From positions 1 to 54,088 of the IMG/VR virus record IMGVR_UViG_3300023199_000101: 54,088 nucleotides of DNA. One strand, 5' to 3'. The position numbers and the translations under genes were made by a program. The number at the start of each line of letters is the position of its first letter. Position 1 is the stretch's first letter. This stretch comes from a virus. Below, one piece after another: positions 3,567 to 54,088 of the stretch. Under the pieces are notes generated by a model that had not been told where the DNA came from, searched no databases, and worked only from the letters and a program-made list of their open reading frames with translations.

Positions 3567-3664
3567 TCGCATCATGCCTACTATTTGCCCTGGTGGGCTT
3601 CGCCCTGGGTATCGTCTGGACCTGCTGGCGCATTTCCCGCCTGCTGAAAAACTGGCCTGAATGA
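3563..3664 (+). CDS. 33-residue membrane peptide
   Basis: This short gene starts by ATGA overlap with its upstream neighbour and ends by ATGA overlap with the RuvC-like gene. The product is one transmembrane helix (about residues 3-20) followed by a short basic tail. The tight coupling on both sides is the main argument that it is real. Function is unknown. Confidence 0.5.
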   Translation: MIASCLLFALVGFALGIVWTCWRISRLLKNWPE

Positions 3665-4332
3665 AAATGACCAGCCAGCAGCTGAAAGAGCTTCGAGCGC
3701 GGAAGCCTGGCATTGAAATAACGCAAACCGTTAAGAGAATCATCGTAGGCTTCGATGCGGATGTTTCGGCCTGCGGTGTGGCTATGTACGATGCTGCCGC
3801 CGGGGAAGTCCTGGAAAAGGAGTGCATCAAATACAGGCTTATGAACGAATGGCTCAATGATATGAGTCGAGACTACGACAGAGACCGGTTCTTGGTGCGT
3901 ATCGAGATCCCTACTGAAAAGACCGCGTTCGGTGTTGTATCTGTATCCAGGGGCAGTAAGGGGGCATTCAAGACGATCTATAATTCTGGCCGCTGCCGAC
4001 AGATCGCTGAGGAAATGTACGAGCTATGCCTGGCGAAGCGAATCCCTGTTCAGCGCGTCGATAGTGATACGAGGATTAACTTCAAGAGCCAAGGGAAAAG
4101 CCGTGCCTGGCTGAAAACGACAACGCCGGGCGACTTTGCCCTGCGAGTAGTGAACCTGGTGCGCCAGGGGCGCGTGAACGATATCTACCCTACAAAGGTG
4201 CCAGCCAAGTTCGTGAAAGACTGGTACGGGCTGCCGGTAGCCGGTAACGACGAAGAGAAGGATGCACTTTGCCTGAGTGTTCCCGAAATGGCCTGGAGGA
4301 AGTATTCCAACGCAATTCAGTATAGCCGCTGA
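3661..4332 (+). CDS. RuvC-like Holliday junction resolvase / RNase H-fold nuclease
   Basis: The 223-residue protein begins its fold with RIIVGFDADVSACGVAMYD, the first beta strand of RNase H/RuvC enzymes with catalytic D32. A second acidic residue, E82, lies in VRIEIP. A late acidic cluster, NDEEKDALCLS, supplies the remaining metal ligands. Phage RuvC homologues resolve branched DNA before packaging or act in recombination. It sits in the early operon upstream of the Rad52-like annealing protein, consistent with recombination. It overlaps the tiny membrane gene by 4 bases. Confidence 0.75.
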   Translation: MKMTSQQLKELRARKPGIEITQTVKRIIVGFDADVSACGVAMYDAAAGEVLEKECIKYRLMNEWLNDMSRDYDRDRFLVRIEIPTEKTAFGVVSVSRGSKGAFKTIYNSGRCRQIAEEMYELCLAKRIPVQRVDSDTRINFKSQGKSRAWLKTTTPGDFALRVVNLVRQGRVNDIYPTKVPAKFVKDWYGLPVAGNDEEKDALCLSVPEMAWRKYSNAIQYSR

Positions 4333-6627: not shown

Positions 6628-6849
6628 ATGATGAAAAGCAAAACAACAGTAAACCGCCGCCCGGTCGTTGAAACCATTGAGGATGCCAGCTTTAGCTGGT
6701 TCTTCCCGGATGGATTCCTGGCTGAGCGCGACCAGCGCACCGCGATAAGTTCTGAAACTCTGATCGAAGAACCCACCGACGAGCAGAAAGCTCAGTGGGC
6801 CTGGGAAATCGAGCAGATTCTTGTTCACCCTTCAAACCGCAGAAAATGA
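6628..6849 (+). CDS. Hypothetical small acidic protein
   Basis: This 73-residue protein of unknown function immediately precedes the Rad52-like gene; the ATGA overlap at 6846-6849 implies translational coupling. Its acidic, Trp-containing C-terminal half may form a helix. A role alongside recombination is suggested only by the coupling. An alternative ATG lies one codon downstream. Confidence 0.6.
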   Translation: MMKSKTTVNRRPVVETIEDASFSWFFPDGFLAERDQRTAISSETLIEEPTDEQKAQWAWEIEQILVHPSNRRK

Positions 6850-7553
6850 GCAAGACAATGAAAATATGGGAGGCATTAACTCCCGTAGATCCTCAGTACA
6901 CTAAGAAAGTCCCGCTTGGCGGTCGTAGGTTGACAGCTATCAACGCGACCTACCGGTTCCAGCGAGCTACCGAATACTTTGGCCCTATGGGGCTGGGTTG
7001 GGGCGTAGAGGACGAGCAGTACGACTTTCAGCAGCTGGGAGCCGAAAAGCACGATACCCTATGCACCTACCGTGCCGTGCTGTGGTACATTGATCCTGAG
7101 AGTTCCGAGACTGGAAAAATCCAGATTAGTGCAGATATCTGGGTCTGGGAATACTCGCGCAAGTATCAGGAATGGCAGCGCCAAGAAGACCTTTTTAAGA
7201 AGGTTCAGACTGACGCGCTGACCAAAGGCCTGTCGAAAATAGGCATGGCCAGCGAGGTGTTTAAAGGAATGTGGGATGACCACAAGTATATGGCGAAAAT
7301 CCAGGCTCAATTCTCTGGCCAGAACGGGAATGAGTCAGCTAGACGCAAGCTGACCAAGAAGCTGCTGGAGCAGGCCGAGCCTGGAATGCAAATCGGTGTG
7401 AAAGAGCAAGGCATGACCTTGAAGCATGTGCTGGAAGCATTCGCCAACAAAGGCTTTACCCTGGATCCCGACATGGAAAAGCATGTTTCTGATAAGGTTC
7501 GCCGTTGGGCGAAAGAAGCTGAGGAAAAAAGGGGCGAAAAAGTCCGGCCGTAG
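6846..7553 (+). CDS. Rad52-like phage single-strand annealing protein
   Basis: This 235-residue protein resembles phage Rad52-superfamily annealing proteins. It opens with a short leader followed by RRLTAINATYRFQRATEYFGPMG, the lysine- and aromatic-rich motif that precedes the beta-sheet core. It continues with a central strand-rich region, then VQTDALTKGLSKIGMASEVF and a WDDHKY motif, as in lactococcal-phage Sak-type proteins. Such proteins anneal complementary strands during recombination-dependent replication. The C-terminal 70 residues are charged and probably interact with SSB or a nuclease. It is the last phage-like gene before the AT-rich island. Confidence 0.75.
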   Translation: MSKTMKIWEALTPVDPQYTKKVPLGGRRLTAINATYRFQRATEYFGPMGLGWGVEDEQYDFQQLGAEKHDTLCTYRAVLWYIDPESSETGKIQISADIWVWEYSRKYQEWQRQEDLFKKVQTDALTKGLSKIGMASEVFKGMWDDHKYMAKIQAQFSGQNGNESARRKLTKKLLEQAEPGMQIGVKEQGMTLKHVLEAFANKGFTLDPDMEKHVSDKVRRWAKEAEEKRGEKVRP

Positions 7554-7701: not shown

Positions 7702-8400
7702 ATGACAAGTGTAGATTTCATTGCAAAACATCTCCCCCTCGAAAATTTAGGGATTCCTATTTTGCCTGTTAATGATGTTTGTTCATTTACTGGCAAAACA
7801 ATCAAAGAGGGAGTTTACAACAAAAAACTTATCAAAAAAACATTTACCGACCATGCTTACTTGAGATACCCTTCCGATTATTCAAGTGTTGAAGCTGCGC
7901 TATGTATAGAAGCTGTAATCCCAGCAAAAAAGGGTTTAAGTTCGCTTAGAAATTACTCATACTTTGTATCTGAAAGGAATTTGAAACTATTGAAGCGTGA
8001 GGAAATATTAGACTTGATGCTGAATATTAATGAAAGCCCGTTTGTGCTTGCTGTAACTTATTCAAATAAGAAACACACGTCTTACAAAACAACGCTTAAC
8101 TATAATATCGAAAAATTTGTCGTTACAACTGATGTTGGCGATGTGTTAATTGAGCGAAAAGGGTTACTTGAGATACTACCAATTTTGCAAAACTGGTATA
8201 CTGTTGTTGATGGCAAGCAATGTACAGCATCACAACCCACTTATTTCACAAAATCAGAAATATTGAGCGGGAGCGAAAATATTAAGCGTATCCGGCAATA
8301 CGGAATTGAAAAATATTGCCTTGAAAATGCGGAAATTGAAAAATACCGAAATACGGCATTTCTTAATCTTATTGTTCACATTCTTAACAAAAAAGTCTAA
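7702..8400 (+). CDS. csf1: Type IV-B CRISPR-Cas protein Csf1 (Cas8-like)
   Basis: This 232-residue protein is the proposed large subunit of a type IV effector. The N-terminal region carries NDVCSFTGKTIKEG and FTDHAYLRYP. The centre has PFVLAVTYSNKKHTSYKT followed by FVVTTDVGDV. The C-terminal part is helical. These match my recollection of the Csf1 pattern, but fewer Cys residues are clustered than in zinc-finger Csf1 proteins. It is the first gene of a tightly coupled AT-rich operon with csf2, a 58-codon ORF, a CysH-like gene and csf3. That context gives most of the confidence. The ATG is preceded by an AT-rich promoter-like stretch. Confidence 0.75.
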   Translation: MTSVDFIAKHLPLENLGIPILPVNDVCSFTGKTIKEGVYNKKLIKKTFTDHAYLRYPSDYSSVEAALCIEAVIPAKKGLSSLRNYSYFVSERNLKLLKREEILDLMLNINESPFVLAVTYSNKKHTSYKTTLNYNIEKFVVTTDVGDVLIERKGLLEILPILQNWYTVVDGKQCTASQPTYFTKSEILSGSENIKRIRQYGIEKYCLENAEIEKYRNTAFLNLIVHILNKKV

Positions 8401-9638
8401 TGCTTAGAGTTAATTACAAAGCGGAAGCCTTACAACAAATTCATACTGGCGCAGACGAAAATCATGGCACGGTAACATTGTTGCGACGTGAAAAACGTCG
8501 GCTGAAAACGCCAGTTAAATTCACATCGAAATTCAAGTCTGAACAGGAGCGAAGAGAAACGTTGCTTACTATTTTGTTGGCAGTTTACAAGTCTATTGAC
8601 AAAGATCTGAAAGCAAGCAACTATGGTTTTTACGATGCGTATGCCAGCAAAATACTTGCTGCAACAGGCGTCAAAACTCGCTACGAGTTTTTGACTGAAC
8701 TATGCAAATCTTGTGGTGTTCGCACCATTGTGGAAAAAGACAATAGTGCAGTAATAAAAGCAATTGATATTTTTTCAGACGAAGAGTTATTACAGACTAT
8801 CCGCAGCGAACATCAATACCTAATGTTGATGCTTCGTGACCATGTACAGACGAAAGGGAAGTCAGATTTTTTCAACCAGGACAATTCGGCTTCAAGCCTT
8901 ACTTTTGAGAAGCATTTTGAGTGGATCCCCTTCATTGCAGGAAACTCCGTCAGGGGTGTCATACGCCGCATCGTGATGCGTGACTTCCTTGAGCGCATTG
9001 GCGTAAACAAAGAATCGTGGGGCGTAGAAAAAGACATGTATCACCAGTTGATGACAGGGGGCAACATTACTAGCTCAACAGCTTTTGAAGATATTGAACT
9101 TAGGGAAAAATATATTTTCCTCTGTCCCATGATTGGACTTCTGGGAAGTGCAATTGGCAATATGACCATTCAGGGCAGCATGAAAACTGGGGCTTTGCGC
9201 CCAATGTGCAAGGAACATGGGAACGGGGATGTTTCATTTTGGGAAACCATTGGAAGGGCTTTTGGCACACGTTCGGACACATCAAAGACGGAGCGTGACA
9301 TTCGTATTGATCAAGCTGAAACAGATGACAAGTCAGCAAATCAGATGAAATATGAATTTGAAGTATTTAATACAGGCACCTTGTTCGATGGTGATTTTGT
9401 GCTGGTGTCAGATGACAAAACATTGGTAAGTGCCTTTTGGTATGCCTTGAAATTGTGGAAAGAATTTGGTTTTGTTGGTGGAAATTCTGCAAGAGGTTAT
9501 GGGAAAATGGACCTTCAAATAGATATTCCCGAAAGTGCAGAAAAAATGTACTTGGAGCATATTGAAAATGTGAAAAATGATGCACTTGATTTTTTTGCAA
9601 TACCAAGAAAACAGGCATTAAAAAACGTATTGGCATGA
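8400..9638 (+). CDS. csf2: Type IV-B CRISPR-Cas backbone protein Csf2 (Cas7-like RAMP)
   Basis: This 412-residue RAMP protein is expected to polymerise along a guide RNA as the Cas7-type backbone. The first strand and loop read EALQQIHTGADE with a following LRREKRRL. The conserved RAMP motif IPFIAGNSVRGVIRR lies at about 176-190. The glycine-rich loop GFVGGNSARGYGKMDL lies at about 357-372. Between the first strand and the GNS motif there is a helical stretch (about 45-150) that looks longer than in the Csf2 proteins I know. The start overlaps the csf1 stop (TAATG), and the stop overlaps the next ATG (ATGA). Confidence 0.85.
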   Translation: MLRVNYKAEALQQIHTGADENHGTVTLLRREKRRLKTPVKFTSKFKSEQERRETLLTILLAVYKSIDKDLKASNYGFYDAYASKILAATGVKTRYEFLTELCKSCGVRTIVEKDNSAVIKAIDIFSDEELLQTIRSEHQYLMLMLRDHVQTKGKSDFFNQDNSASSLTFEKHFEWIPFIAGNSVRGVIRRIVMRDFLERIGVNKESWGVEKDMYHQLMTGGNITSSTAFEDIELREKYIFLCPMIGLLGSAIGNMTIQGSMKTGALRPMCKEHGNGDVSFWETIGRAFGTRSDTSKTERDIRIDQAETDDKSANQMKYEFEVFNTGTLFDGDFVLVSDDKTLVSAFWYALKLWKEFGFVGGNSARGYGKMDLQIDIPESAEKMYLEHIENVKNDALDFFAIPRKQALKNVLA

Positions 9639-9811
9639 AAAAAATAACCAACAAAGATGTTTACACAAGCGCTGTTGAGCGCTTAGAATTCACATTTAAA
9701 GAATTTGATCTGGAATTGGAGATGCAACCAGACGAAGTGTTAAGACTAAAGCAAATAACAGGACTAGCGGAAATGTTTTCAGATGAGGAATTTTCAAAAA
9801 GCTGGGAATGA
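9635..9811 (+). CDS. 58-residue helical protein inside the type IV-B operon
   Basis: This short, acidic, apparently all-helical protein overlaps csf2 by ATGA and the CysH-like gene by ATGA, so it is translated as part of the operon. Type IV-B systems normally encode a small subunit (Cas11) in the operon. This ORF could be a reduced Cas11 or an unrelated coupling peptide. It is much shorter than the roughly 100-150 residues I would expect for Cas11. No motif is recognised. Confidence 0.6.
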   Translation: MKKITNKDVYTSAVERLEFTFKEFDLELEMQPDEVLRLKQITGLAEMFSDEEFSKSWE

Positions 9812-10560
9812 CAGATTACTGGAAGTCATATTATTTAGCGCATTCAAGAACAAGACTATTTAAGAAGAGAATAGATCTTGCCTTTAAAGTTATTGACAAT
9901 TTTGTGTCAGTTTGCGACAAACCATATATTGGATTCAGTGGTGGCAAGGATAGTTCAGCTATGTTGTTATTGTATCAAAAACTTGGCTTAACAAATATAC
10001 CTGTTTTTACTCAGTCAGATGATTTTGACTGGGATTTTAAAAAACCGACATGTTTAAAAATAATAGGCCAAACTGGATTTTTTGATTACACATACAATGT
10101 AGCAAATGAAAGCGTTTTAGAACAGGTGGGTAATATGGATTTCCTTTCAAATGATTACATTAATATAGACAATGTGTTTTACGGGGAAATTGAAAAGTTC
10201 TACAAAAGTAGAGATCTGAACGGATATTCAATAGGGATAAGAATACAGGAAAGCCGAAAAAGGAAATTTAGGGTATTAACCGCAGGGCAAGTTTCAAAAA
10301 CAAAATCAGGTTTGTGGTCATGCTATCCAGTTGCAAACCTAAGGGGCGAGGATGTTTTTGCTTTAATTATATCTAATGACTTACCATACATGGATGTTTA
10401 CGACAAACATGGCGATAAAGCGCCTCACGAAATTAGGTTCAGTTGGGTAACAAATCCTGAACTATTTCACAGGGGAGTATTAGTTTGGCTAAAACAAAAT
10501 TATCCTGATCGATACAATAAATTAATTGCCATTAATAAAAAAATAAAATGTTATGTCTAA
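9808..10560 (+). CDS. CysH-like PP-loop ATPase associated with type IV-B CRISPR
   Basis: This 250-residue member of the adenine nucleotide alpha-hydrolase / PAPS reductase-like family has the PP-loop SGGKDSS at residues 44-50 and a QSDDFDWDF segment. CysH-like genes are the established accessory marker of type IV-B CRISPR-Cas loci, and their role there is unknown. No sulfate-assimilation genes lie nearby, so a function with the Csf complex is more likely than cysteine synthesis. It overlaps csf3 by 8 bases. The usual C-terminal Cys motif of true PAPS reductases is not evident. Confidence 0.85.
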   Translation: MTDYWKSYYLAHSRTRLFKKRIDLAFKVIDNFVSVCDKPYIGFSGGKDSSAMLLLYQKLGLTNIPVFTQSDDFDWDFKKPTCLKIIGQTGFFDYTYNVANESVLEQVGNMDFLSNDYINIDNVFYGEIEKFYKSRDLNGYSIGIRIQESRKRKFRVLTAGQVSKTKSGLWSCYPVANLRGEDVFALIISNDLPYMDVYDKHGDKAPHEIRFSWVTNPELFHRGVLVWLKQNYPDRYNKLIAINKKIKCYV

Positions 10561-11197
10561 TTACAAAATCACATTCCAAATAAAAACCCCTGTATCATTT
10601 CAAGATACTATTATGTTTGACGGCATAGTTGCTTATGCCTACGCACAAGATCAGATGAAAGGAGTGCGTGGGCAGGCGCAAAAACTAAGCTATTCAAAAG
10701 ATGAATTGATAGATTTTTCTTCTATGCCAATCATAAAGCATGAAGATGGTTATTTTATGGCATCGTGGATGTTCTACGAAATGGATGAAATGGTAGAGTA
10801 TTTGGGCAGTTGGAAAAAACGCTGGGCAAATGAACATGATCACCTTTCCGACTTTGGAAAGCAAAAAAGAAAAGTTAGAGTTGATGCTGCCAACTTCAAG
10901 TCTTACGATGTGCCTATTCGATTAGTAGATATTTCTGAATGCTGGTTTTTTTTTCAATCTCAAAATGTGCAGGAGGTCGAAAGGCTTCTGAGTAAGCACG
11001 TTGTAGGTATTGGAAAAAAAATAGCACAGGGAAACGGATTGATTAAAAGCTTTGAGATTGAGGAATTACAACACAATCCCTTTGACGAACTCATACGCCC
11101 AATTCCTACTATTAAGCGAGGTGATAATGTTAGGTTTACGGGCTATTATCCACCATATTGGATGTCCGAAAATCAAGGTTTTTGTTTGGTCTATTAA
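10553..11197 (+). CDS. csf3: Type IV-B CRISPR-Cas protein Csf3 (Cas5-like RAMP)
   Basis: This 214-residue Cas5-like protein would cap the 5' end of the guide in the effector. It begins with YKITFQIKTPVSFQDTI, a RAMP first strand. The glycine-rich loop GIGKKIAQGNGLIKSFEIEE lies at about 149-168. It ends with PIPTIKRGDNVRFTGYYPPYW, a C-terminal pattern typical of Csf3. It is the last gene of the cassette and overlaps the CysH-like gene. Placing the CysH-like gene between csf2 and csf3 is unusual relative to the type IV-B layouts I know. Confidence 0.85.
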   Translation: MSNYKITFQIKTPVSFQDTIMFDGIVAYAYAQDQMKGVRGQAQKLSYSKDELIDFSSMPIIKHEDGYFMASWMFYEMDEMVEYLGSWKKRWANEHDHLSDFGKQKRKVRVDAANFKSYDVPIRLVDISECWFFFQSQNVQEVERLLSKHVVGIGKKIAQGNGLIKSFEIEELQHNPFDELIRPIPTIKRGDNVRFTGYYPPYWMSENQGFCLVY

Positions 11198-18367: not shown

Positions 18368-18703
18368 GTCCCGAAACACCTATGTTGAAATCCAAATCTC
18401 CGAAAGATGCTGCCGTTCGCGCACAGGCGTTCTGGCCTGCCGTCGGGCCACTCACACCTGGCAGCCACCCAGGGCAATTCGGCGACTTGGTGTGCCCCGG
18501 AAGCCCTGATCCGGAAACAAAAGAACCCATATTCTTAGCCTTGGATCCTGTCATCGCAGGACAAATCTAGTGTATATTCTTTAATATTCAAAATATTCTG
18601 CAATGAAATTTTTTTCGTGAAAACGTTAAATAATTTGCATGCTCTGAATATCCGCCTTTTTCCCCGAGGTCCGTTAATCCGGGAGCGGGGGGGGGTAAAC
18701 ATA
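18368..18703. other. Unassigned stretch upstream of the iteron cluster
   Basis: The leftward terminator at 18341-18367 implies a minus-strand transcript through 18370-18570. Short ORFs exist on both strands but none reads convincingly as protein, so this may be an untranslated RNA or a decayed gene. From 18571 the DNA is AT-rich, ending in a run of nine G at 18687-18695 just before the repeats. Confidence 0.35.
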
Positions 18704-18845
18704 GGATTAAGGGGGTATAAATGTACGATTAAGGGGGTATAAATGTACGATTAAGGGGGTATAAATGTACGATTAACCATAATAATACAAGAGTAATAAT
18801 ACAAGATAGAATAAGCGGACCTGTTTCAAAACAGGCCCGATCCTG
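18704..18845. repeat. Iteron cluster duplicated from the replisome-organizer gene
   Basis: Three exact tandem 22-bp units beginning GATTAAGGGGGTATAAATG lie at 18705-18726, 18727-18748 and 18749-18770, with a partial fourth unit. They are followed by AATAATACAAGAG repeats and a CCTGTTT...AAACAGG hairpin. The same series, with two units, lies inside the replisome-organizer gene at 48394-48511 at high identity. This copy is intergenic with no obvious reading frame, so it may be a second origin or a recombination relic. Confidence 0.8.
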
Positions 18846-18920: not shown

Positions 18921-19589
18921 ATGAAGGATTTTGTCGAATCGCTAAAGTGGAAATCCGAACACGCCAAGCGCCAGGCGCTTCTGGCTGTTGGCAATGCTCG
19001 GACGCGCGCTATTGAGGCCAGAAAGCAAAGATCTTGGCGGCAGAACATTTCTAACCTGGCCCAGCTGTACCCGGAGGATGCGAACTCCTTCTTGGCTATC
19101 CTAGAGAGCGACACCGCTTCGCAAGATTCGGTAGCCCAGGCTGAACGGAAGGTAAAGTTTGTGGACGCTTTTGCTGCTCCGGCTGGGATCCGCCCGAAAA
19201 AGCCGTGCGCTGACTGCCCGGACGATATTGCCGACCAGGTAGAACGAGTTACCGCTGGCCTGCAGGCGACCAAAATAGATGCACACCCCTACGAACCCAA
19301 AACGGAAGCAGGCCGTACAGCGGCGACAGACAGCCCGGGGCAGGACGATACTCCTTTTTCTCTTCCGGAGGAACTGTACGAAGAGCCGAAGCTCAAAAAG
19401 GTACTCGATCTGAATGATTTTGACAGCGTGGACGACCTGAAAAAGTTTCTGGCTTTTGAGGATCGCCCGAAGCGCGAGATCCGCGACGAGGTTAAGGCTT
19501 GGCTGGACAGCAACGAGGTGGAATACAGCGGCCGGTCCAGTACCGAGAAGCTGATCAATGCAATGTACAGGAAGCTAACCGAGGCGTAA
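18921..19589 (+). CDS. Hypothetical protein with C-terminal HeH/LEM-like domain
   Basis: This 222-residue protein opens the rightward tail operon. The N-terminal 90 residues are helical and basic, a Cys pair (CADC) lies near residue 95, and an acidic linker follows. The last 40 residues (RDEVKAWLDSNEVEYSG then STEKLINAMYRKL) resemble the HeH/LEM or SAP-like helix-extended-helix fold seen in phage head-tail genes. Its stop overlaps the next ATG. A structural or assembly role is inferred from position. Confidence 0.55.
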   Translation: MKDFVESLKWKSEHAKRQALLAVGNARTRAIEARKQRSWRQNISNLAQLYPEDANSFLAILESDTASQDSVAQAERKVKFVDAFAAPAGIRPKKPCADCPDDIADQVERVTAGLQATKIDAHPYEPKTEAGRTAATDSPGQDDTPFSLPEELYEEPKLKKVLDLNDFDSVDDLKKFLAFEDRPKREIRDEVKAWLDSNEVEYSGRSSTEKLINAMYRKLTEA

Positions 19590-25456: not shown

Positions 25457-26658
25457 TGGCTGTATTAGTTACAAAATCGCCAGGCAATTATTCGACCCTG
25501 AAGCCTTCCGTGGTATGGTCGTTTCAGATGGATACGGAAGGGATATACCCTATTGAATATCGAATGTTCTATCAGCTGTTTCTATCCGGTGTGGGTGCTA
25601 TTACGGAGCGCCGGGTAGTAAACTATTCGGCTAATCCGTTGCGGGTAGATTTTTCGGAAGTCATGGCTGGTCAGGTTCATACTCCTTTGCTTTCTCCGCT
25701 GAGCGATCGAGCGATCACGGATGTTAACGATGAACAAACTGCCGATTTTTTCGTGAGCTATGGCGAGTTGGTCCTTAATCGAGAAACCGGTGTGCAAGTA
25801 GAGCAGGGCGCAGCGAATACTGGTCAGTGTACAGTTATGAACGGCGTTGTTCCGTATGACGAATTAGACCTGATAAGCAATACCGAAAACGATGTGTTTC
25901 TTACGCGCCGCGAAAAGTATTTCAAGACCTGCAAGTCGCAGTACGATTGGATCTATGTGCGCGTTGGCCGCGAGCCTATCTGGCTAAAGACTAGCTTCAA
26001 TACTGGCTTAATTCCTTTCATCATTACGCCGCTTCCGGTAGAATTGGCGGCTTATACGATCTGGGCTATACCTGTTGGTGGGGCTAATCTTGCAGACGCT
26101 TGGAGTGCAGATGCTACATACGCGGAGGTCGTAGGTGCTACCGAAACGGTCAGGTTTGAGTTTTATCGTGCCGATCCAGATGCAGACCCTGACCAGACAC
26201 CATTTGAAGTCTATACTGCTGAGATGAACTCGTGCTGCGAGGACGGTAATCAGACTGAGTTGTACTTCCTGGAAGGCCCAGGCGGCTATGCATCTTTTCG
26301 ATTCGATGAGGTTGACTATGGCGCAAACAGGCAGTATAGCAGGGTCGAATCGGCCTGGGATGTTCGCGGAAACCTAGAATACCGGCTGAAGTTTGGCGGG
26401 GCTTCTGTGGCTAGCACTACGACTTTTCAGACCCTTCGGCTGTCTACTCGCTTGCCAGCAGTGTCGGAGCAGCAGGAAAAGTTTTTGCGGCAAATCTATT
26501 CCAGCGAGTATGTGTACCTGAAACATCGGGGGCCGGATGGTGTGTTCTATCCGCTTAGAGTACTGGTAGATGGTGGCCAGTTTACGACCCGTCGCCTCGA
26601 AGAGTTCACCGAGCTAGTTGTCAATATCCGAGCAAACAAAGACCTTCTGAGCCTATGA
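25456..26658 (+). CDS. Distal tail structural protein
   Basis: This 400-residue beta-rich, acidic protein starts in TAATG overlap with the tape measure and ends in ATGA overlap with the next large gene. The gene after a tape measure usually encodes a distal tail protein or baseplate component, and strand-rich composition fits. A Cys pair near residues 259-260 lies in a probable domain linker. Its weak sequence signature means only the module role is supported. Confidence 0.6.
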   Translation: MAVLVTKSPGNYSTLKPSVVWSFQMDTEGIYPIEYRMFYQLFLSGVGAITERRVVNYSANPLRVDFSEVMAGQVHTPLLSPLSDRAITDVNDEQTADFFVSYGELVLNRETGVQVEQGAANTGQCTVMNGVVPYDELDLISNTENDVFLTRREKYFKTCKSQYDWIYVRVGREPIWLKTSFNTGLIPFIITPLPVELAAYTIWAIPVGGANLADAWSADATYAEVVGATETVRFEFYRADPDADPDQTPFEVYTAEMNSCCEDGNQTELYFLEGPGGYASFRFDEVDYGANRQYSRVESAWDVRGNLEYRLKFGGASVASTTTFQTLRLSTRLPAVSEQQEKFLRQIYSSEYVYLKHRGPDGVFYPLRVLVDGGQFTTRRLEEFTELVVNIRANKDLLSL

Positions 26659-31076: not shown

Positions 31077-31328
31077 AAGCCACAGTACAAAGCCAAGTGG
31101 GCGAGTAAAAATCAATCCTTCATCGGATCCCGTCAGGAGAATTGTTGGATACTTAATCTTTGGAAGCGGGAGTTTGAGGAAGTCCGCCCGGCCGTAAATC
31201 CTGATCAAGCCGCCCGGATCCTGACCAGGGCCAAAAAGTTCTTTTACGACCGTACTATCGAGCCGCTATGTGTCGGCTACGACGACAAAAGGGGCCAGAA
31301 AAAAAACTTGACATTTTCTGAAAAATAA
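31077..31328 (+). pseudogene. Start-less ORF running into the 485-bp repeat
   Basis: This frame reads as plausible protein (KREFEEVRPAVNPDQAARIL, then KKFFYDRTIEPLCVGYDDKRG) but has no ATG or GTG at its 5' end. It begins right after an in-frame TGA at 31074. Its last residues come from the repeat, which begins at 31295. An ATG in a different frame (31068) overlaps its start. It looks like a gene that lost its 5' end and was cut or altered at its 3' end by the repeat. Confidence 0.45.
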
Positions 31329-31362
31329 TTGTGCAAAACTTGACAATGTGTAAAGATTGGCT

Positions 31363-31370
31363 TATATTTG
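31363..31370 (+). promoter_or_regulatory. Promoter in the repeat (TTGACA...TATATTTG)
   Basis: TATATTTG is preceded 20 bases upstream by TTGAC (31340). The 11-mer AAAACTTGACA occurs twice (about 31303 and 31337), which may be an operator. The same promoter lies at the right end of the window, 54037-54044. Confidence 0.65.
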
Positions 31371-31398
31371 TATCATCAGTTAATCAAAAAAAAACACA

Positions 31399-31536
31399 AT
31401 GAAAAATTGGAATGAATTTCTAGCGGCTTGTAAGATTGCGTGGCAAACAGAAGGGCGCCAAGAACCGGAAATAGGTAGATATTTGCGGAGGTGCGAAAAA
31501 ACCACATCGATTGGGGTTAATCCAGGTAGCCGCTAG
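31399..31536 (+). CDS. 45-residue protein encoded in the repeat
   Basis: This short basic protein starts MKNWNEFLAACKIAWQTEGR and has two Cys residues. It follows a well-formed promoter, with the ATG 28 bases after the -7 box. The right end of the window starts the same gene at 54075. No family is recognised; it could be a small regulator, toxin or phage-encoded inhibitor. Confidence 0.45.
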   Translation: MKNWNEFLAACKIAWQTEGRQEPEIGRYLRRCEKTTSIGVNPGSR

Positions 31537-31597
31537 TGCGTACAAATTGTACAAACAAGAAAACGCATGCACAAAGAACAGCTAAAAAAGGAAATCG

Positions 31598-31634
31598 AAG
31601 CCCGCTTCCAATCGAGGCGGGCTTTTGTTTTTTC
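31598..31634 (+). terminator. Rho-independent terminator inside the repeat
   Basis: AAGCCCGC (31598-31605) pairs with GCGGGCTT (31617-31624), followed by TTGTTTTTT. It closes the promoter/45-codon-ORF unit. Confidence 0.8.
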
Positions 31635-31699
31635 GTTCAACGAGAAAGCAGGATTTGCGGCACTGGACGAAACAACCCTGAGCCGCCAAGTTTCGGGGC

Positions 31700-32062
31700 G
31701 TGTCGGATTGTCAGCCGCTTGGCAGTGTGCTTATCTGTTTTTCTTTTCATCTTATAGCACCTAACGGCTCTGTATGTGAGTGGCTTATTCTGGACCTTCC
31801 GGAGAAGCCTACGCGCCACAAAACGGGCTACGGCAGCTACTGGCATCGGGCAATCCGTTTTGATCCAGAGGAACTGGATTTCAAAATCCCGGAGTGCCTG
31901 GATCCTGCCCGCGACCAAGAACGCTTTGCTTGGAAGCAATGGCGAGACGGCAGCAGGCTGAGAGGCTGGATGAAGCTAAATTACGTAAACCAGATTAAGC
32001 CCGATTGCTGGCTGGCCTGGGGGGTATGGGATGAGCGCATGAGCGTTCTAAACTTAACTTAA
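31700..32062 (+). CDS. Hypothetical protein whose N-terminus lies in the repeat
   Basis: From 31780 onward the frame reads as a normal soluble protein of about 94 residues (EWLILDLPEKPTRHKTGYGS onward, several Trp residues). The frame is open leftward into the repeat to a GTG at 31700, so 26 residues would come from repeat DNA. Either the repeat supplied a new start or it replaced the original one. At the left window end the same frame leads to a stop after 13 more residues. It ends just before the terminator ahead of the head module. Confidence 0.4.
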   Translation: MSDCQPLGSVLICFSFHLIAPNGSVCEWLILDLPEKPTRHKTGYGSYWHRAIRFDPEELDFKIPECLDPARDQERFAWKQWRDGSRLRGWMKLNYVNQIKPDCWLAWGVWDERMSVLNLT

Positions 32063-39766: not shown

Positions 39767-42700
39767 ATGAAAGCGTTGTGGAGGATTGCAGTTTTTCTTT
39801 TGATCGCCGACTGCCTTTTTGGGCAAACCGGCCCGGCAACCCGACCCTTGGTGCGCAGACTGGAGCAAGCGCCCAAAGAGGGATCGATTATCGTATCTGA
39901 TTCAAACCGAGACGGGCAATGGGATTCGACGCTGATCTGGACCGGCGTGTACCTGATCGCTAACGGTGATACCCTGGGTATAGGATCCGGTGGGGGCGTT
40001 CCGCAAAGCCTGACATTCACCAGTCCGACTCTTTCTATTTCGGGCGGCAATAGCGTGGATCTTTCTGCATTGCTCGATAATACCGATGACCAAGTGCTAA
40101 GCCTAACGGGCGACGTGCTGAGCCTGGAGGACGGCGGCTCCGTAAACCTTTCTTCCTACTTAGATAATACCGATACGCAAGACCTTAGTTTAGCCGGGAA
40201 TACACTTTCCCTTACAGACGGAGGGAGTGTAGACTTGTCGGCATTCTTGGATAACACAGATTCGCAAACGCTGAGCCTGGCCGGTACGGTGCTTTCTATT
40301 TCGGGCGGCAATAATGTGGATTTTGCTTCCTTGGTAGCTCCTCAAAATCTGACATTCGATATATCTACTGGCAATCTTTCGATATCAGGAGGTAATACTG
40401 TAACTATTCCCGAAATGGTTGGTGCTAGTTCGGTAGCTGCAGGCGAGCAGGGCCTAGTTCCTGTTCCACTGGCCGGGGACGAGGAAAAGTTTTTGCGCGG
40501 CGATGGTTCATGGTCAGACGTAGCTGGCAATCAGACTATAAGCATAACCGGAACGGATTTATCGATCAGTCAGGGCAACTCGGTGGCCTTAGCCGAGGTG
40601 CTGGCTCTGAATGACCTATCGAACGTAAATGCCAGTCCGGCAAACGGGCAGGTTTTGAGCTGGAATGGAAGCCAGTGGGTAGCTGCTGACGATGCTACCG
40701 GTGCGCCCGGAACCTCTGATGGGGTGGTCGATGGGGTAAGCATTAGCAATGATTCCTTGGTGCTAACTAGGACGGAAAGCCTGGGGGATTTGCGGGTTGA
40801 CTTGGACCCGTTCCTGGACAATACCGACGAACAGACACTGAGCCTGGCTGGTACTGATCTTTCTGTTTCGGGAGGGAATACCGTAGACCTGTCCGGCCTG
40901 CAGGATGGCACCGGTACAGACGACCAGCAGCTGACATTAACCGGGAATACTCTTTCCCTGGAGGACGGCGGCCCCGATATTGATTTAAGCGGCTATATCG
41001 ATAATACCGACAACCAAGGTTTTGACATTGCGAGCCTAAATGGTACGGACTTGGAATTGAGCCTCGACAACGACGCGGCTACAACGATCATTGACCTTTC
41101 CAGCTTGCAGGATGGCACCGGTACGGACGATCAACAGCTTTCGCTGGCTGGAAACAGTTTGTCGCTGGAAGACGGCGGGAGCGTTAGTTTGGCTTCGTAC
41201 CTGGACAATACGGACGAGCAGACGCTGAGCTTCACCAGCCCAAATCTATCTGTTTCAGGTGGCAACACGGTAGATCTATCTGCCTTGCAGGACGGCACCG
41301 GCACGGACGATCAAGCGCTGAGCTTGGCAGGTACGACGGTATCCTTGGAGGATGGCGGAAGTGTGGATCTGACCGAGGTGTTGGCTCTGAATGACCTATC
41401 GAACGTTAATTCCAGCCCTACGAATGGACAGGTGCTTTCGTGGAACGGTTCAGCCTGGGTAGCGGCTGACGATGCTACCGGTGCGCCTGGAACGTCGGAT
41501 GGGGTGGTCGATGGGGTAAGCATTAGCAATGATTCCTTGGTGCTAACTAGGACGGAAAGCCTGGGGGATTTGCGGGTTGACTTGGACCCGTTCCTGGACA
41601 ATACCGACGAACAGCAGCTTTCCTTGACTGGCAACAGCTTAACTCTGGAGGACGGAGGGAGCGCTATTGACCTGTCCGGCTACCTGGATAATACCGATGC
41701 GCAGACGCTGAGCCTGGTAAGTACGAATCTGACTATATCGAATGGCAACACGGTGGACCTGTCTGCCTTGCAGGATGGAATCGGTACGGATGACCAGACG
41801 CTGAGTTTCACATCACCGAACCTGTCGATATCAGGGGGTAACTCGGTTAACCTGTCTGCCTTGCTGGATAATACAGACGACCAGACTATTGATGTTTTTT
41901 TGCTGTCTGGTGACGACTTGCAACTTTCCCTGGAGGGCGATGGAGAAGCTACGAAAACGGTGGACCTGAGCGGCTACCTGGATAATACCGATACCCAGGA
42001 TCTTTCGCTGGCCGGCAACACACTGAGCCTGACCGATGGCGGAAGTGTGGACCTGTCGCTGTACCTGGATGACACCGACGACCAGACGCTGAGTTTCACT
42101 AGCCCGAACCTGTCTATTTCGGGGGGTAATAGCGTGAATCTGTCCGCCCTGAACACGGAGCGCACCGATGAGGAAATCGAGGATGTGGCCGGCGCCATGT
42201 TTTCGGGCAATGCGGAAACGCTCATAACGGCAACATACCAAGATGTTGACGGAACTATTGACCTAGAGGTGAACGACGACCTGAGCTTGTACGATAACTC
42301 AACTTCGGGATTCGTAGATGGCACAGAACTTGCCGACACGGCAGCCGCTATTCGAGCAGACTTTCCTACAACCGCAGACGGCGTTGCGTCTTCCGGGTCG
42401 CTTGATACATTGAGTGAGGAAATTGACATTGTGGTCACCGATGCCCCAGATTTTTCGATTGACCTTTCGAAAATTGACGTTTTGCCTTCGTTTTTAAGCT
42501 GGGATAAGGATGTTGCAAATGAGGGTAGACTTTCCACAGCTAATCTTTTCGGCGATGGTGCGATTACCAGCAACACTCAGGGAGCACTCGCAATCAAATT
42601 TCCTGCCGGCTTCGGGCTGAACACTATGGTTACGAGCGCGTCAAATGGCGGCGAAATTGAGTTTGAGGTCGATACTTCAGAGGTAGCTACGCTGAGTGCT

Positions 42701-44215
42701 TTGACAGATAGTCTTTCTAATATTGGCTCCACCACTGTCAGCGAGGGCGACCTGATCGACATCGTGAACGTGGGCGATGATTATCAGGTGGATGTGGATT
42801 TGAGTGAGTTGACAAATTCCGCGGCAGATATAATAGACGATGATGAGTTCATTTTTCTCGACAACGGCAATCAGCAGAAGATGCGATCGGATTCGTTCGC
42901 ATGGAACTATCTCACGGAGGTGATAAGTACATCAGAATCGGGAAGCTTTTTTAAAGAATTCAATAATTCTGTTTTTGCAACTAATATTGTGTCCTTGACT
43001 GGGAGCGCTACAACTCACGACGCATTAGTTTCAATGGGTCGAGGCCAACATGCTATCGGCATTCGCTTCATCATCACAAATGACGGGAGCGCCGACAAGA
43101 CGGTAGATTTCGGTACGCTATACCATTGGGCAGGCACGACCAACGACGTGGAACTCGAAGTAGATGTCGGCGATACGGAGGTAATTGAGTGCTACCGGCT
43201 GACACCTACTGGAAGTGTATTCGAGTGCGTCTACCTGAACGACACGATACCCACAGGCGGAGGTGGCTCCGACGATTGGGGTACGCAAGTCGTTCAATCG
43301 GATGCAACCCTGATAGGCGATGGCACGAGCGGCAATGAGTTGAAGGTCGATACTTCAGAGGTAGCTACGCTGAGTGCGCTAAATGACAGCATTGCGGGCT
43401 TATCAACTACGGATACCCATCTTTTCAGCGAGAACAAGACCCTTTCGGCTAATCGCTCGCATTCCCTTGGCGCCAATCGTCTAGGCTTCACGCTTGCGAA
43501 CGGCGAGTTCGATGTTACAATGCAGACAGGAGCCTCCTCAATCGCTCTTGGCGGTGAGGGAGTATCGGAAACAAGGATTGGCTCCACATCTATCTGGGGT
43601 GACAGCATTATGATTTCGGCCAATGAGCTTCACTTGCAGGGTTTCGACTCTATCGTGGTTTCGGAGAGTAAAATGAAGTATGATGCGTCTGCTCCAACTA
43701 GTTTCTCAGGCACCGATATTCCGAGCGTAGACTGGATAGAAGCGAATATACCAGGTACGGATGCAGTGGGAATCAACGAGTTAGACATTAGTCTTACTGA
43801 CCTTGATCTCGAACAAGATGAATTTTTCTTACTTCGCGATGGCAGTAATCTTGAAGAAGTGAGCTTCGACAATCTTGTAGACAAGGAAATACAGGCGCTC
43901 CCCTTCACGACCACGACTTCTGGGAACTTCAGCATTATTATCACCGAGTCTGTTTTTGGGGTAGTGAGGGTCAATCTTACCGGCGGGGCGACCACCCATA
44001 CGGTCACTATGTCTACCAGTTTTGTGCGGACAGGCGCGCAGTGGACAATACATATTAGAAACACGGGAACTGGAACGCACACGGTAGATTTCCCCAGCAC
44101 TGTGCTGAAGGGTGATGCTACTACACAAGTCGGTAATATCGGCATTGACGCTGGTGATTTCATATTTATTCCGATGTATTATGACGGAACGAACTTCATC
44201 ACTAATCTGAACTAA
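39767..44215 (+). CDS. Repetitive tail-fibre-like protein with signal peptide
   Basis: This 1482-residue protein begins with a Sec-type signal peptide (hydrophobic core about 6-17, likely cut after CLFG). About 800 residues follow of short repeats built on LSLAGNTLSL, SGGNSVNLSAL and YLDNTDxQ phrases, the kind of beta-helical or fibrous repeats found in Bacteroidota tail-fibre proteins. The C-terminal 600 residues are less repetitive and include Gly/Thr-rich strand regions. A 117-bp segment is exactly repeated 780 bp apart. It probably mediates host attachment, which makes export by the host machinery unexpected. Confidence 0.65.
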   Translation: MKALWRIAVFLLIADCLFGQTGPATRPLVRRLEQAPKEGSIIVSDSNRDGQWDSTLIWTGVYLIANGDTLGIGSGGGVPQSLTFTSPTLSISGGNSVDLSALLDNTDDQVLSLTGDVLSLEDGGSVNLSSYLDNTDTQDLSLAGNTLSLTDGGSVDLSAFLDNTDSQTLSLAGTVLSISGGNNVDFASLVAPQNLTFDISTGNLSISGGNTVTIPEMVGASSVAAGEQGLVPVPLAGDEEKFLRGDGSWSDVAGNQTISITGTDLSISQGNSVALAEVLALNDLSNVNASPANGQVLSWNGSQWVAADDATGAPGTSDGVVDGVSISNDSLVLTRTESLGDLRVDLDPFLDNTDEQTLSLAGTDLSVSGGNTVDLSGLQDGTGTDDQQLTLTGNTLSLEDGGPDIDLSGYIDNTDNQGFDIASLNGTDLELSLDNDAATTIIDLSSLQDGTGTDDQQLSLAGNSLSLEDGGSVSLASYLDNTDEQTLSFTSPNLSVSGGNTVDLSALQDGTGTDDQALSLAGTTVSLEDGGSVDLTEVLALNDLSNVNSSPTNGQVLSWNGSAWVAADDATGAPGTSDGVVDGVSISNDSLVLTRTESLGDLRVDLDPFLDNTDEQQLSLTGNSLTLEDGGSAIDLSGYLDNTDAQTLSLVSTNLTISNGNTVDLSALQDGIGTDDQTLSFTSPNLSISGGNSVNLSALLDNTDDQTIDVFLLSGDDLQLSLEGDGEATKTVDLSGYLDNTDTQDLSLAGNTLSLTDGGSVDLSLYLDDTDDQTLSFTSPNLSISGGNSVNLSALNTERTDEEIEDVAGAMFSGNAETLITATYQDVDGTIDLEVNDDLSLYDNSTSGFVDGTELADTAAAIRADFPTTADGVASSGSLDTLSEEIDIVVTDAPDFSIDLSKIDVLPSFLSWDKDVANEGRLSTANLFGDGAITSNTQGALAIKFPAGFGLNTMVTSASNGGEIEFEVDTSEVATLSALTDSLSNIGSTTVSEGDLIDIVNVGDDYQVDVDLSELTNSAADIIDDDEFIFLDNGNQQKMRSDSFAWNYLTEVISTSESGSFFKEFNNSVFATNIVSLTGSATTHDALVSMGRGQHAIGIRFIITNDGSADKTVDFGTLYHWAGTTNDVELEVDVGDTEVIECYRLTPTGSVFECVYLNDTIPTGGGGSDDWGTQVVQSDATLIGDGTSGNELKVDTSEVATLSALNDSIAGLSTTDTHLFSENKTLSANRSHSLGANRLGFTLANGEFDVTMQTGASSIALGGEGVSETRIGSTSIWGDSIMISANELHLQGFDSIVVSESKMKYDASAPTSFSGTDIPSVDWIEANIPGTDAVGINELDISLTDLDLEQDEFFLLRDGSNLEEVSFDNLVDKEIQALPFTTTTSGNFSIIITESVFGVVRVNLTGGATTHTVTMSTSFVRTGAQWTIHIRNTGTGTHTVDFPSTVLKGDATTQVGNIGIDAGDFIFIPMYYDGTNFITNLN
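40718..41614. repeat. Exact 117-bp direct repeats within the fibre gene
   Basis: 40718-40834 and 41498-41614 are identical, within longer near-identical flanks (from about 40588 and 41368). The spacing of 780 bp is a multiple of three, so recombination between them would delete or add 260 residues without shifting the frame. Confidence 0.85.
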
Positions 44216-48064: not shown

Positions 48065-49045
48065 ATGCACAAGCCTTCATACTACACGGTCACCCCTGCT
48101 CACATCAGGTATGACAAATCCCTTCCTCCTTTTGCACGTCTACTGTATGGTGAAATTACTGCGCTTGCGAACAAGCGAGGCTATTGTGATGCTAGCAACG
48201 GATGGCTGGCTAAGCAGTACGAAGTTACGCCTCAGGCAGTCAGTGGTTGGATTCGGCAGTTGGCTGAAAAGGGGCACTTGGTCTTAATCTATGAGGATGG
48301 CGAGTACGGGATGAAGTGCAGGAAAATATACCTTTCTGAAGCCTATCGGCAGGAGTTCGAACTATTAACAGACGTTTACCCCCCTAAACAACAGATTAAG
48401 GGGGGTATAAATAACGGATTAAGGGGGTATAAATGTACGATTAACCAGAATAATACAAGAGAGAATAATACAAGAGAGAATAAAGCGGACCTGTTTGAAA
48501 ACAGGCCCGACCCTGGACCGAAGCCAGTAAAAAAGAAGGTCGCTGACATGAGCGACAATGAGAAAATGAGCTACCGGCTGGAGAAAGCGAAAGCGAAATC
48601 CTACGAGCCTGACATTCGACGGGTAGTGGATTATTTCCGGAAAGCCTCAGGTAAGAATGTAGCCTACTCGACGAAGGACGCGCTGGACTACATGGTCAAG
48701 CGCATGAAAAAGGACGGCTACACTGCCGACGACTTGACTCTGGTGATTGACTACAAGGTTAAGCAGCTTGTGGATCGGCCTGAATACATCAACCTATCCA
48801 CCTTTTTCCGCGATAGCCTATTTGAGGGCAATCTGGAAAAGGCCCGAATGAATAACAGGAAAGCCGGACCATCGAAAGCATCTCCGGTACGAGACCCTAT
48901 TGAGGATGAACAAGTAAGGGCGTACAAGTCCATGATGGAGCGTGCCCGGCTGAAAGGATACGACCTGCAGGAAGCCGCCGCCTTTGCGCGAAAGCACCTC
49001 GGGCTGAATGATGATTTTTTCAACCAACAAACAACAAACGCATGA
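48065..49045 (+). CDS. Replisome organizer / replication initiator with wHTH
   Basis: This 326-residue protein resembles phage replication initiators. A winged helix lies at about 30-85 (GYCDASNGWLAKQYEVTPQAV onward). A linker region (110-135) is encoded by iteron DNA. A C-terminal phage-conserved/DnaD-like domain lies at about 185-260 (VVDYFRKASGKNVAYST onward to FRDSLFEGNLEKA). As in lambda O, the origin repeats lie inside the gene. It begins the rightward replication operon behind the immunity region and overlaps the next gene by ATGA. Confidence 0.8.
   Translation: MHKPSYYTVTPAHIRYDKSLPPFARLLYGEITALANKRGYCDASNGWLAKQYEVTPQAVSGWIRQLAEKGHLVLIYEDGEYGMKCRKIYLSEAYRQEFELLTDVYPPKQQIKGGINNGLRGYKCTINQNNTRENNTRENKADLFENRPDPGPKPVKKKVADMSDNEKMSYRLEKAKAKSYEPDIRRVVDYFRKASGKNVAYSTKDALDYMVKRMKKDGYTADDLTLVIDYKVKQLVDRPEYINLSTFFRDSLFEGNLEKARMNNRKAGPSKASPVRDPIEDEQVRAYKSMMERARLKGYDLQEAAAFARKHLGLNDDFFNQQTTNA
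48394..48511. repeat. Iterons / putative origin inside the replisome-organizer gene
   Basis: Two units, 48394-48416 and 48417-48438, begin GATTAAGGGGG and are followed by a partial unit, two AGAATAATACAAGAG repeats and a hairpin (CCTGTTT...AAACAGG, 48490-48506). TACCCCCCT just upstream is complementary to AGGGGGGTA in the first unit. This is the putative lambda-type ori; the same block recurs at 18704-18845. Confidence 0.75.
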
Positions 49046-49431
49046 GTGCTACACAAGCTGCGCAATCACTGGAATCTATTCCTACTGACACCTGGCTGGA
49101 AATTCGAATAAACTTTTTGCCTGCCCGGCATGGGGTTATTGCTCGCAAGATCCGGAACGGCGATGCTCCGGAAGAGGTACTGGAGTACATGAGTAAGGTT
49201 GAAGCCGCGCAGGGCCGCGCCCTAGAGGCTGCTATTGCCGAGAGCGATAAGTCCCTTGGGCTGCTATTGAACCGCCGGTCGTTCTGGATCCGCGTCATAC
49301 GCAATTACCTGAAAGATCAGGGAGCAACACGAAAGGAAGCAATTCGGCAGCTACGTTCTTTCTCTTCGCTGGTGGGGCTGTACGGAGCTGAGAAAGTCGT
49401 TAACGAAGCTTTCAAAATCGTGTACCCATGA
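49042..49431 (+). CDS. Hypothetical replication-operon protein
   Basis: This 129-residue, largely helical basic protein lies between the replisome organizer and the replicative helicase, overlapping both by ATGA. Helicase loaders and inhibitors often occupy this slot, but no AAA+ motif is present, so a small adaptor protein is more likely. No family is recognised. Confidence 0.55.
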   Translation: MSATQAAQSLESIPTDTWLEIRINFLPARHGVIARKIRNGDAPEEVLEYMSKVEAAQGRALEAAIAESDKSLGLLLNRRSFWIRVIRNYLKDQGATRKEAIRQLRSFSSLVGLYGAEKVVNEAFKIVYP

Positions 49432-50822
49432 GCCAACGAAAAGACAGGAATATAATATGCCGGGGTATCCTGGGAACATTACTTATTCACCCGAAATGGT
49501 TTGCATCGGCCGCCGGGATGACCCCTGAAATGTTTCCGGAGGGAAACCTACAAGATGTAGCGAACCTGGTCTGGAAGAACGGCTTCGGCGCTACACTGGC
49601 TCTGGTGGCTGCTGAGGCTAACGAGGATCCGAGCTACCTGATGGAATACGCAGTGGAATCCTTAGACGACTTCGAGAAGCTGATTGAAGAAGGTAAGAAT
49701 CTGTACCTAGACGAATCCACGATAACGATAATGCAGCAGGCTACCCAGGCCGCCCTGTCGGGCGACGATGTGGAAATGTGCATTAATTACTTGACAGAAT
49801 CCAGGCGAGATTTAGTCGAGCGGGCGCGTATTGTTAAGCCGAGGGAAAAGCTAGTTGAGAACGTTAGCAATCGGATCGATCAATCCCGGTCCGGGGGGAT
49901 TCCAGGTATAAGCACCGGATACACTGATCTGGACAAAAAGGCCGGCGGCTGGTATGCTCCAGACCTGACAATAATCGGAGCGCGTCCGGCGATGGGGAAA
50001 ACTACGAACATGATCGAGTTGGCTGTCCGGGGCGCTAAGCAGGGCAAGGGCGTGGCGATTTTCTCCTATGAAATGTCGTCCGAGCAGATAGCTACCGTGG
50101 CTATTTGCCAGTTGGCCGGTGTTACGACGGAGAGCCTATACAAAGGCCTTCTTTTCCCTGATGAACTCGATGAGGTGGAAGCTTGGAAGGAGATATTCTT
50201 CAAATTACCTATAACGATCCGCGACCTAACCGAGGTGCGCAATACCCCTGCGAGTATGTGGACTGAGATTCAGCGCATCCGGATGGACCAGCGCGTGGAT
50301 CTCGTTTTCGTGGACTACCTGCAACTGATGAATGCGGACGGCGAACACGGCAATCGATCCGAGGAAGTTAGCCAGATAAGTCGTGCATTGAAACGCTACG
50401 CTGTGCAAGGTGATTTTCCGGTGATTGCCTTGGCTCAACTGAGCCGCGCAGTTGAAAATCGAGGCGGCGATCGGAAGCCTATCCTAGCCGACCTTCGGGA
50501 ATCCGGGTCTATTGAGCAAGATGCTGATAACGTCTATTTCCTATATCGCCCGGAAGTGTACGGCATTGAGGAAGACCTGGAAGGAAATAGCGTGAAGGGT
50601 GTAACGTACTGGGTTGGAGCCAAGCACCGGATGTTTGGCGGAAGTGTGGTTGGAGCTGAGTTTAAGCGCTTTTTCCGGCATGGACGCTTACTGGAAGAAT
50701 CTGAACTGACTTTCGATGACAAAGTAGACAAAATGAAGCGTGAAAAAAAGCACGAAAATATCATTAATCCAGCCGTGGTGAACGGCTACAAAGCAACAAG
50801 CGATGAGGACTTGCCATTCTAA
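49428..50822 (+). CDS. dnaB: DnaB-like replicative helicase with SSB-like C-terminal tip
   Basis: This 464-residue hexameric 5'-3' helicase has an N-terminal helical domain (about 1-135), a linker and a RecA-like motor. Walker A is GARPAMGKT (184-192). Walker B is VDLVFVDYLQLM. The DnaB motif GDFPVIALAQLSRAVE and arginine-finger region NRGGDRKPILADLRESG follow. Unusually, the protein ends DEDLPF, the same acidic-hydrophobic tip as the SSB encoded just downstream. That tip normally recruits SSB partners, so this helicase may compete for or recruit the same proteins. Confidence 0.9.
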   Translation: MSQRKDRNIICRGILGTLLIHPKWFASAAGMTPEMFPEGNLQDVANLVWKNGFGATLALVAAEANEDPSYLMEYAVESLDDFEKLIEEGKNLYLDESTITIMQQATQAALSGDDVEMCINYLTESRRDLVERARIVKPREKLVENVSNRIDQSRSGGIPGISTGYTDLDKKAGGWYAPDLTIIGARPAMGKTTNMIELAVRGAKQGKGVAIFSYEMSSEQIATVAICQLAGVTTESLYKGLLFPDELDEVEAWKEIFFKLPITIRDLTEVRNTPASMWTEIQRIRMDQRVDLVFVDYLQLMNADGEHGNRSEEVSQISRALKRYAVQGDFPVIALAQLSRAVENRGGDRKPILADLRESGSIEQDADNVYFLYRPEVYGIEEDLEGNSVKGVTYWVGAKHRMFGGSVVGAEFKRFFRHGRLLEESELTFDDKVDKMKREKKHENIINPAVVNGYKATSDEDLPF

Positions 50823-51082: not shown

Positions 51083-51514
51083 ATGAACAAAGTCATTTTA
51101 ATCGGTCGCCTCGGTAAAGACCCTGAACTGCGCACTCTAGAATCCGGAGCATCGGTGGCCAACTTTTCTCTGGCTACCAATGAAAAGTACAAAGACCGAA
51201 ACGGTGAATACCAGGAGCGCACCGAATGGCATAATTGCACCGCATGGGGCAAGCGTGCTGAGGTGATTGAGAAGTACGTGCAAAAAGGCCAGCATCTGAT
51301 AGTCGAAGGAAAAATCAACACCGATAAATGGACAGACAGCGACGGGAATGAGCGTCGTTCAACCAAGATTGTGGTTACTAATTTTGAGTTTATCGGCGGG
51401 GCTTCTGCAAATGGATCTACCGTAAGCAGCGAGAAGAACTCGTACGTGGATGACACTGAAAAAAACCCTTTGGCGGGGGCGCGTCCAAAAGTGGATGAGG
51501 ATCTGCCATTCTAA
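51083..51514 (+). CDS. ssb: Single-stranded DNA-binding protein
   Basis: This 143-residue OB-fold protein matches bacterial SSB. It starts MNKVILIGRLGKDPELR, contains VANFSLATNEKYKDR, then WHNCTAWGKRAEV and LIVEGKINTDKW, and has a disordered linker. It ends DEDLPF, the conserved tip that recruits SSB-interacting proteins. It has its own promoter box and a terminator after the gene, and it follows the replication operon. Confidence 0.95.
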   Translation: MNKVILIGRLGKDPELRTLESGASVANFSLATNEKYKDRNGEYQERTEWHNCTAWGKRAEVIEKYVQKGQHLIVEGKINTDKWTDSDGNERRSTKIVVTNFEFIGGASANGSTVSSEKNSYVDDTEKNPLAGARPKVDEDLPF

Positions 51515-53968: not shown

Positions 53969-54088
53969 CCAGAAAAAAAACTTGACATTTTCTGAAAAAT
54001 AATTGTGCAAAACTTGACAATGTGTAAAGATTGGCTTATATTTGTATCATCAGTTAATCAAAAAAAAAAACACAATGAAAAATTGGAA
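53969..54088. repeat. Right-end copy of the internal 485-bp repeat (5' part)
   Basis: 53969-54088 matches 31295-31412; the only difference is a poly-A run of 11 instead of 9. It includes the TTGACA...TATATTTG promoter (-7 box at 54037-54044) and the first codons of the 45-residue ORF (ATG at 54075), cut by the window end. Confidence 0.9.

Follow-up and report, generated by a model that had tools for sequence, protein, structure and literature searches.

What is a copy of part of a replication initiator gene doing in an intergenic gap about half a genome away from that gene? The question is raised by a single IMG/VR viral contig of 54,088 bp (hereafter the window), in which a non-coding block resembles part of the gene for a replication initiator (Table 1). 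The initial annotation located this copy in a gap near 18.7 kb and offered three roles for it: a second origin, a control site that titrates the initiator, or a regulatory target. The host of the phage is probably a member of Bacteroidota, because the terminase is nearest to those of Flavobacteriia phages, Croceibacter phage P2559Y among them, and because Bacteroidota-type promoter matches (consensus match only) occur on the contig.

Sequence and anatomy of the second block

The duplication is real. Local alignment of 18727-18845 with 48394-48515 gave a score of 176 over 122 columns, and the best score among 500 pairs of dinucleotide-preserving shuffles was 29. The block coordinates given in the initial annotation and its three exact 22-bp units were right, and the homology begins slightly further to the left, at about 18689. 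The exact iteron, GGGGGTATAAATGTACGATTAA, occurs in the block at 18711, 18733 and 18755, and a degenerate unit with five mismatches stands at 18689. Beyond the units of the block and the gene, no further site within six mismatches was found on either strand of the 54 kb.

The copied content goes beyond the iterons that had first been noticed. On their 3′ side, both copies have an AT-rich stretch consisting of two imperfect repeats of AATAATACAAGA, followed by a hairpin, CGGACCTGTTT(C/G)AAAACAGGCCCG. As an isolated single strand, each copy of the hairpin folds with a z of about -4, and any other match to the hairpin core on the contig has at least two mismatches. A role as a terminator was rejected; the hairpin has a weak T-tail and does not stand out from shuffles. 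By nearest-neighbour energies over all 40-bp windows of the contig, the AT-rich stretch of the block is the second least stable (0.02 percentile), and that of the gene lies at the 0.39 percentile.

The block points the same way as the in-gene copy, and it is non-coding, because two 1-bp deletions relative to the gene lie 3′ of the iterons and stops are present in the frames. Counted by element, the two copies differ at none of 22 positions in the last iteron, at 1 of 25 in the hairpin (in the loop, the stem being identical), at 5 of 41 in the AT-rich stretch and at 4 of 24 in the other iteron pair. The order of iterons, AT-rich stretch and hairpin is kept, and the alignment stops a few bases past the hairpin. 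The two blocks cannot be a single sequence that was assembled twice, since they disagree at about 12 of the 122 columns and their flanks are not alike. The record being one single contig, the block may be present in this assembly alone. It lies in a divergent gap, between minus-strand lysis/terminase genes and a plus-strand tail operon whose tape measure gene is at 21809.

Table 1. Coordinates of the two origin-like sites, their surroundings and the replication and recombination genes in the window.
Feature	Position	Strand	Evidence or remark
Second origin-like block, non-coding	18689..18845	+	Alignment score 176 vs ≤29 in shuffles; frame broken
Iteron array, one degenerate and three exact 22-bp units	18689..18776	+	Unit scan
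AT-rich stretch, probable DNA unwinding element	18777..18815	+	Low stability; feature conserved in the class
Hairpin 3′ of the AT-rich stretch	18816..18839	+	ssDNA fold, z about -4; stem as in the gene
AT-rich island	18560..18665	.	Bacteroidota-type promoter match at 18562-18591, minus strand, towards lysis/terminase; consensus match only
First tail-operon gene, function unassigned	18921..19589	+	75 bp past the block
Replication initiator gene	48065..49045	+	HTH_36 winged helix, Phg_2220_C (Pfam); phrog_428, E 1.6e-26
In-gene iterons	48401..48444	+	Degenerate at 48401 (4 mismatches), exact GGGGGTATAAATGTACGATTAA at 48423
In-gene AT-rich stretch	48445..48485	+	Encodes NQNNTRENNTREN
In-gene hairpin	48486..48509	+	ssDNA fold, class comparison
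129-aa protein between initiator and helicase	49042..49431	+	
DnaB-type replicative helicase	49428..50822	+	
Single-strand binding protein	51083..51514	+	
Possible Holliday junction resolvase	3661..4332	+	phrog_1770, E 0.0013, weak
Recombination protein, PHROG label exonuclease	6795..7553	+	phrog_7838, E 3e-35

The initiator gene and its in-gene origin

In the structure of the initiator predicted from 30 homologues, the winged helix is confident (about residues 12-100), residues 101-156 have very low confidence, and the C-terminal parts are helical. The segment that matches the block corresponds to codons 108-151, inside the linker 101-156. Because this linker is predicted to be disordered, the constraint on the segment that encodes it is likely to act on the DNA, and by the same model the in-gene origin is placed where the initiator protein is least constrained. 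Fold comparison of the initiator gave weak matches (best E 0.012), mostly to winged-helix regulators, with titles of initiator/Rep-DNA complexes (4pt7, 5kbj) and DnaD (2v79) among them. The contig carries the pattern of a replisome organizer with an in-gene origin, namely a winged-helix initiator with repeats and an AT-rich stretch in the linker-coding part. ORF20 of the staphylococcal phage 80alpha resembles G38P, the replisome organizer of Bacillus subtilis phage SPP1 (PMC5499656), and the initiator of the window matches it over 23 C-terminal columns only. The 129-aa protein encoded next to the initiator found no match in family searches, and its structure model is poor (mean pLDDT 48); its position suggests that it is a candidate helicase loader.

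Origins in related initiator genes

Viral contigs were scanned once with a profile built from eight sequences, which yielded 80 related loci. Of 78 distinct initiator genes, 68 have an AT-rich stretch coding for NNT motifs, and in 21 of these 68 an inverted repeat follows it directly (p ≤ 0.05 when compared with random windows from the genome concerned), where about 3.4 would be expected. Second iteron clusters were sought in 37 distant relatives, comprising 29 near-complete contigs (8 covered to 40 kb) and eight isolate phages, with 80alpha left out. In 31 of the 37, direct repeats that recur every 20-30 bp lie 3′ of the part encoding the winged helix; in a few genomes these are repeats of the AT-rich stretch itself. 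The annotated putative origin of 80alpha has the same form, with the hairpin end GTCGGGcaaCCCGAC after the AT-rich stretch. Given these counts and the origin of 80alpha, iterons with an AT-rich stretch, joined by a hairpin in about a third of cases, are on sequence grounds a recurring in-gene origin. Because the relatives carry this series of parts at the corresponding position in their initiator genes, where a linker predicted to be disordered is encoded, the second block is, to judge from its parts, a whole origin copied out of its coding context.

Whether relatives keep both blocks was examined in the 37 distant ones. Staphylococcal and lactobacillal phages (80alpha ORF20, EW, CL1) share with the window the mid-gene repeats, the AT-rich NNT-coding stretch and often the hairpin, but an acceptable second tandem iteron cluster at a distance was found in none of the 37 relatives (80alpha being outside this test). 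One near and very recent copy was found, in Lactobacillus phage iLp1308. A 176-bp, 98% identical, non-coding copy of its own in-gene origin parts (26281-26456 of the record) lies in an intergenic gap and adjoins an apparent transposase end; it is the sole strong non-coding match among the 37. This case resembles the window in that in-gene origin parts were copied, non-coding, into an intergenic gap, and differs in that the copy lies only about 1.2 kb upstream of the initiator gene, is nearly identical to it, and stands near a possible transposase remnant. Origin duplication out of the gene does happen, and a distant copy is rare in this sample.

Other candidates were rejected. A second cluster in one relative (G024) was an AT-rich false positive, and a second match in another (G029) was the coding initiator gene of another prophage. 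In phage EW, a 17-bp match to the in-gene repeats in an intergenic gap was not significant. No close relative of the window was found by a scan of viral contigs for the exact iteron pattern, by single-protein scans or by blastn against phage records, and two iteron-pattern matches in genome contigs were due to chance.

Large-scale structure of the contig

The ends of the contig share repeats with its middle: 1-114 equals 31666-31779 (114 bp), and 53969-54088 is closely similar to 31295-31412 (118-120 bp). Both sides of a segment of about 485 bp (31295-31779), which contains a Bacteroidota-type promoter, a short ORF and a terminator-like repeat, recur in this way at the contig start and end. 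The simplest arrangement that this suggests is a circular genome of about 54.3 kb in which a direct repeat of about 485 bp occurs twice. If the circle closes via the repeat, 29.7 kb would separate the two origin-like sites in one direction and 24.7 kb in the other, 2.5 kb off exactly opposite. Cut at the repeat, the circle falls into arcs of about 31.4 and 22.7 kb with one origin block each, and the initiator gene is on one of them only. The arcs are complementary in gene content, with terminase, lysis and tail genes on one and head and replication genes on the other. A single circle carrying the repeat twice would give the same assembly as two circles that each carry it once, so that the joining is ambiguous at large scale.

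Several other elements of the contig were recorded. A tyrosine integrase gene is encoded, and just upstream of it, at 196-279, is a match to permuted tmRNA (Rfam RF04321, 57 bits), arranged as a tmRNA 3′ end, a short spacer and a tmRNA-like 5′ start; this may be an attP in ssrA or a phage-borne permuted tmRNA. An exact 20-bp repeat, TTTTCTATACTATTTCTATA, at 664-683 and 869-888 before the integrase gene, possibly represents arm-type sites of the integrase. A low-GC island at 7702-11197 carries a gene set like that of type IV CRISPR-Cas systems, with genes for a Csf1/Cas8-like protein (7702), a Cas7 with an N-terminal Cas11-like part (8400), a PAPS reductase/CysH-like protein (9808) and a Csf3/Cas5-like protein (10553). 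cysH is an accessory gene of type IV-B. The Cas7 of the contig found no match by tblastn against 50,697 phage records. A probable tail fibre gene for 1482 aa (39767-44215) has many repeats of 71-128 bp, including two 176-bp blocks of 93% identity that are 780 bp apart.

Possible functions of the second block

A similar layout is known from Bacillus subtilis phage SPP1. Its oriL lies inside gene 38 and its oriR in an intergenic gap of the late region, each has direct repeats plus an AT-rich stretch, and the initiator binds both (PMC6316719). The theta phase begins at oriL, and it has been proposed that gp38 bound to oriR stalls the fork and thereby leads to recombination-dependent sigma replication (PMC6316719, PMC3485210, PMC5615212). 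The window likewise has a direct-repeat origin within the initiator gene and a distant intergenic block with similar repeats and an AT-rich stretch in the late region, and the order of initiator gene, small gene and DnaB-type helicase gene is the same. It differs in that the phage comes from another host group, has an integrase and carries the hairpin in both blocks, and in that the sites are 24.7 or 29.7 kb apart, against about 13 kb in SPP1.

Judged from its sequence, the block is very probably an initiator-binding, origin-derived site in the general sense. By analogy with SPP1 it may more specifically be an oriR-like second initiator site, acting as a late origin and/or a bound fork barrier for a theta-to-sigma switch, a reading that has about an even chance of being right. 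It is favoured because iterons, AT-rich stretch and hairpin follow one another in the copy as they do in the gene, and the copy ends just past the hairpin; because the iterons of the block are more regular and its AT-rich stretch less stable, with the last iteron and the hairpin stem unchanged; because the same anatomy recurs in related initiator genes; because the layout is that of SPP1, where fork stalling at oriR has been proposed; and because the phage encodes the helicase, SSB and recombination proteins that such a switch would require. Against it stand the result in the distant relatives, the failure to find a close relative that shows the block, the short reach (23 columns) of the initiator's match to ORF20 of 80alpha, and the negative family searches with the candidate helicase loader. 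GC skew was discarded as a marker of an active origin, as it follows gene strand.

The course of events would then be as follows. The second block would derive from the in-gene origin, and the initiator would bind the iterons of both. Early theta replication would start at one block, probably the in-gene site, and the distal array, whose iterons are cleaner and more numerous and whose AT-rich stretch is more weakly paired, would serve as a late or secondary origin and/or a protein-bound barrier. A rightward fork from the in-gene site would meet the second array, iteron side first, after about 24.7 kb. Once the fork had stalled there, phage recombination proteins could switch replication to the concatemer-forming (sigma) mode.

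Among the roles first offered, that of an origin-like initiator site is upheld by the full series of parts, whereas sequence alone does not tell a late origin or fork barrier apart from a site for titration or for control of late genes. Copy-number control, in which initiation is kept down through titration of the initiator by the distal iterons or through their handcuffing with the in-gene origin, is unlikely but deserves the most serious attention after the oriR-like reading. There is precedent in iteron plasmids, for example P1, where clusters that lie outside the origin (incA) limit initiation, and incA of P1 and crr of P4 are second clusters of initiator-binding repeats away from the origin. 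The three exact tandem iterons of the block, more than at the in-gene site, would suit such a role. Iterons would suffice for it, however, and P1 incA is not known to hold anything but iterons, whereas in the window a whole origin unit was copied, including the hairpin stem and an AT-rich unwinding stretch that is even weaker than the original. Phages in the lytic phase, moreover, have little need of copy control.

The block could also be a functionless relic, left behind by an illegitimate duplication or by an earlier initiator gene. The copy in iLp1308 demonstrates that such duplications happen, but here no initiator coding sequence flanks the block, its ends coincide with the borders of the origin anatomy, the iterons are regular, and the differences spare the last iteron and the hairpin stem; a relic is rather improbable. 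Late-gene control is distinctly doubtful. In that case the bound initiator would repress or activate the divergent lysis/terminase and tail promoters and so couple late expression to replication. The position of the block speaks for this, since late operons diverge from its two sides, the first tail gene starts 75 bp further on, and a minus-strand Bacteroidota-type promoter match lies about 100 bp away. Shuffled sequences, though, contain promoter and terminator matches at least as often as the gap does, and regulation would not need the copied AT-rich stretch and hairpin.

It is very improbable that the block or its position is an assembly artefact, or that the contig joins two molecules. The repeats common to contig ends and middle do leave the large-scale joining ambiguous, but the origin blocks differ in sequence and flanks, which argues against a mis-join at an identical repeat, and the two arcs complement each other in gene content. 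That the genome is, or resolves into, two circular replicons with one initiator for both and the virion genes divided between them is hardly credible, because the arcs jointly, not singly, make up one complete siphophage.

Implications for phage replication

The block is real, functional-looking, rare in its class and of a known kind. The two-origin layout of SPP1 is a well-studied case of how a phage may change from circle-to-circle to concatemer replication, in which the role of the second site is still a proposal (PMC6316719, PMC3485210), and the phage of the window is a second, independent instance of this layout from another host group. With the origin copy being non-coding, the second site could be removed without touching a protein, and the switch proposed for SPP1 would become testable in another group of phages. 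The anatomical rule of iterons, an NNT-coding AT-rich stretch and often a hairpin, all within the part of the gene for a disordered initiator linker, could help to spot origins in many uncharacterized phages.
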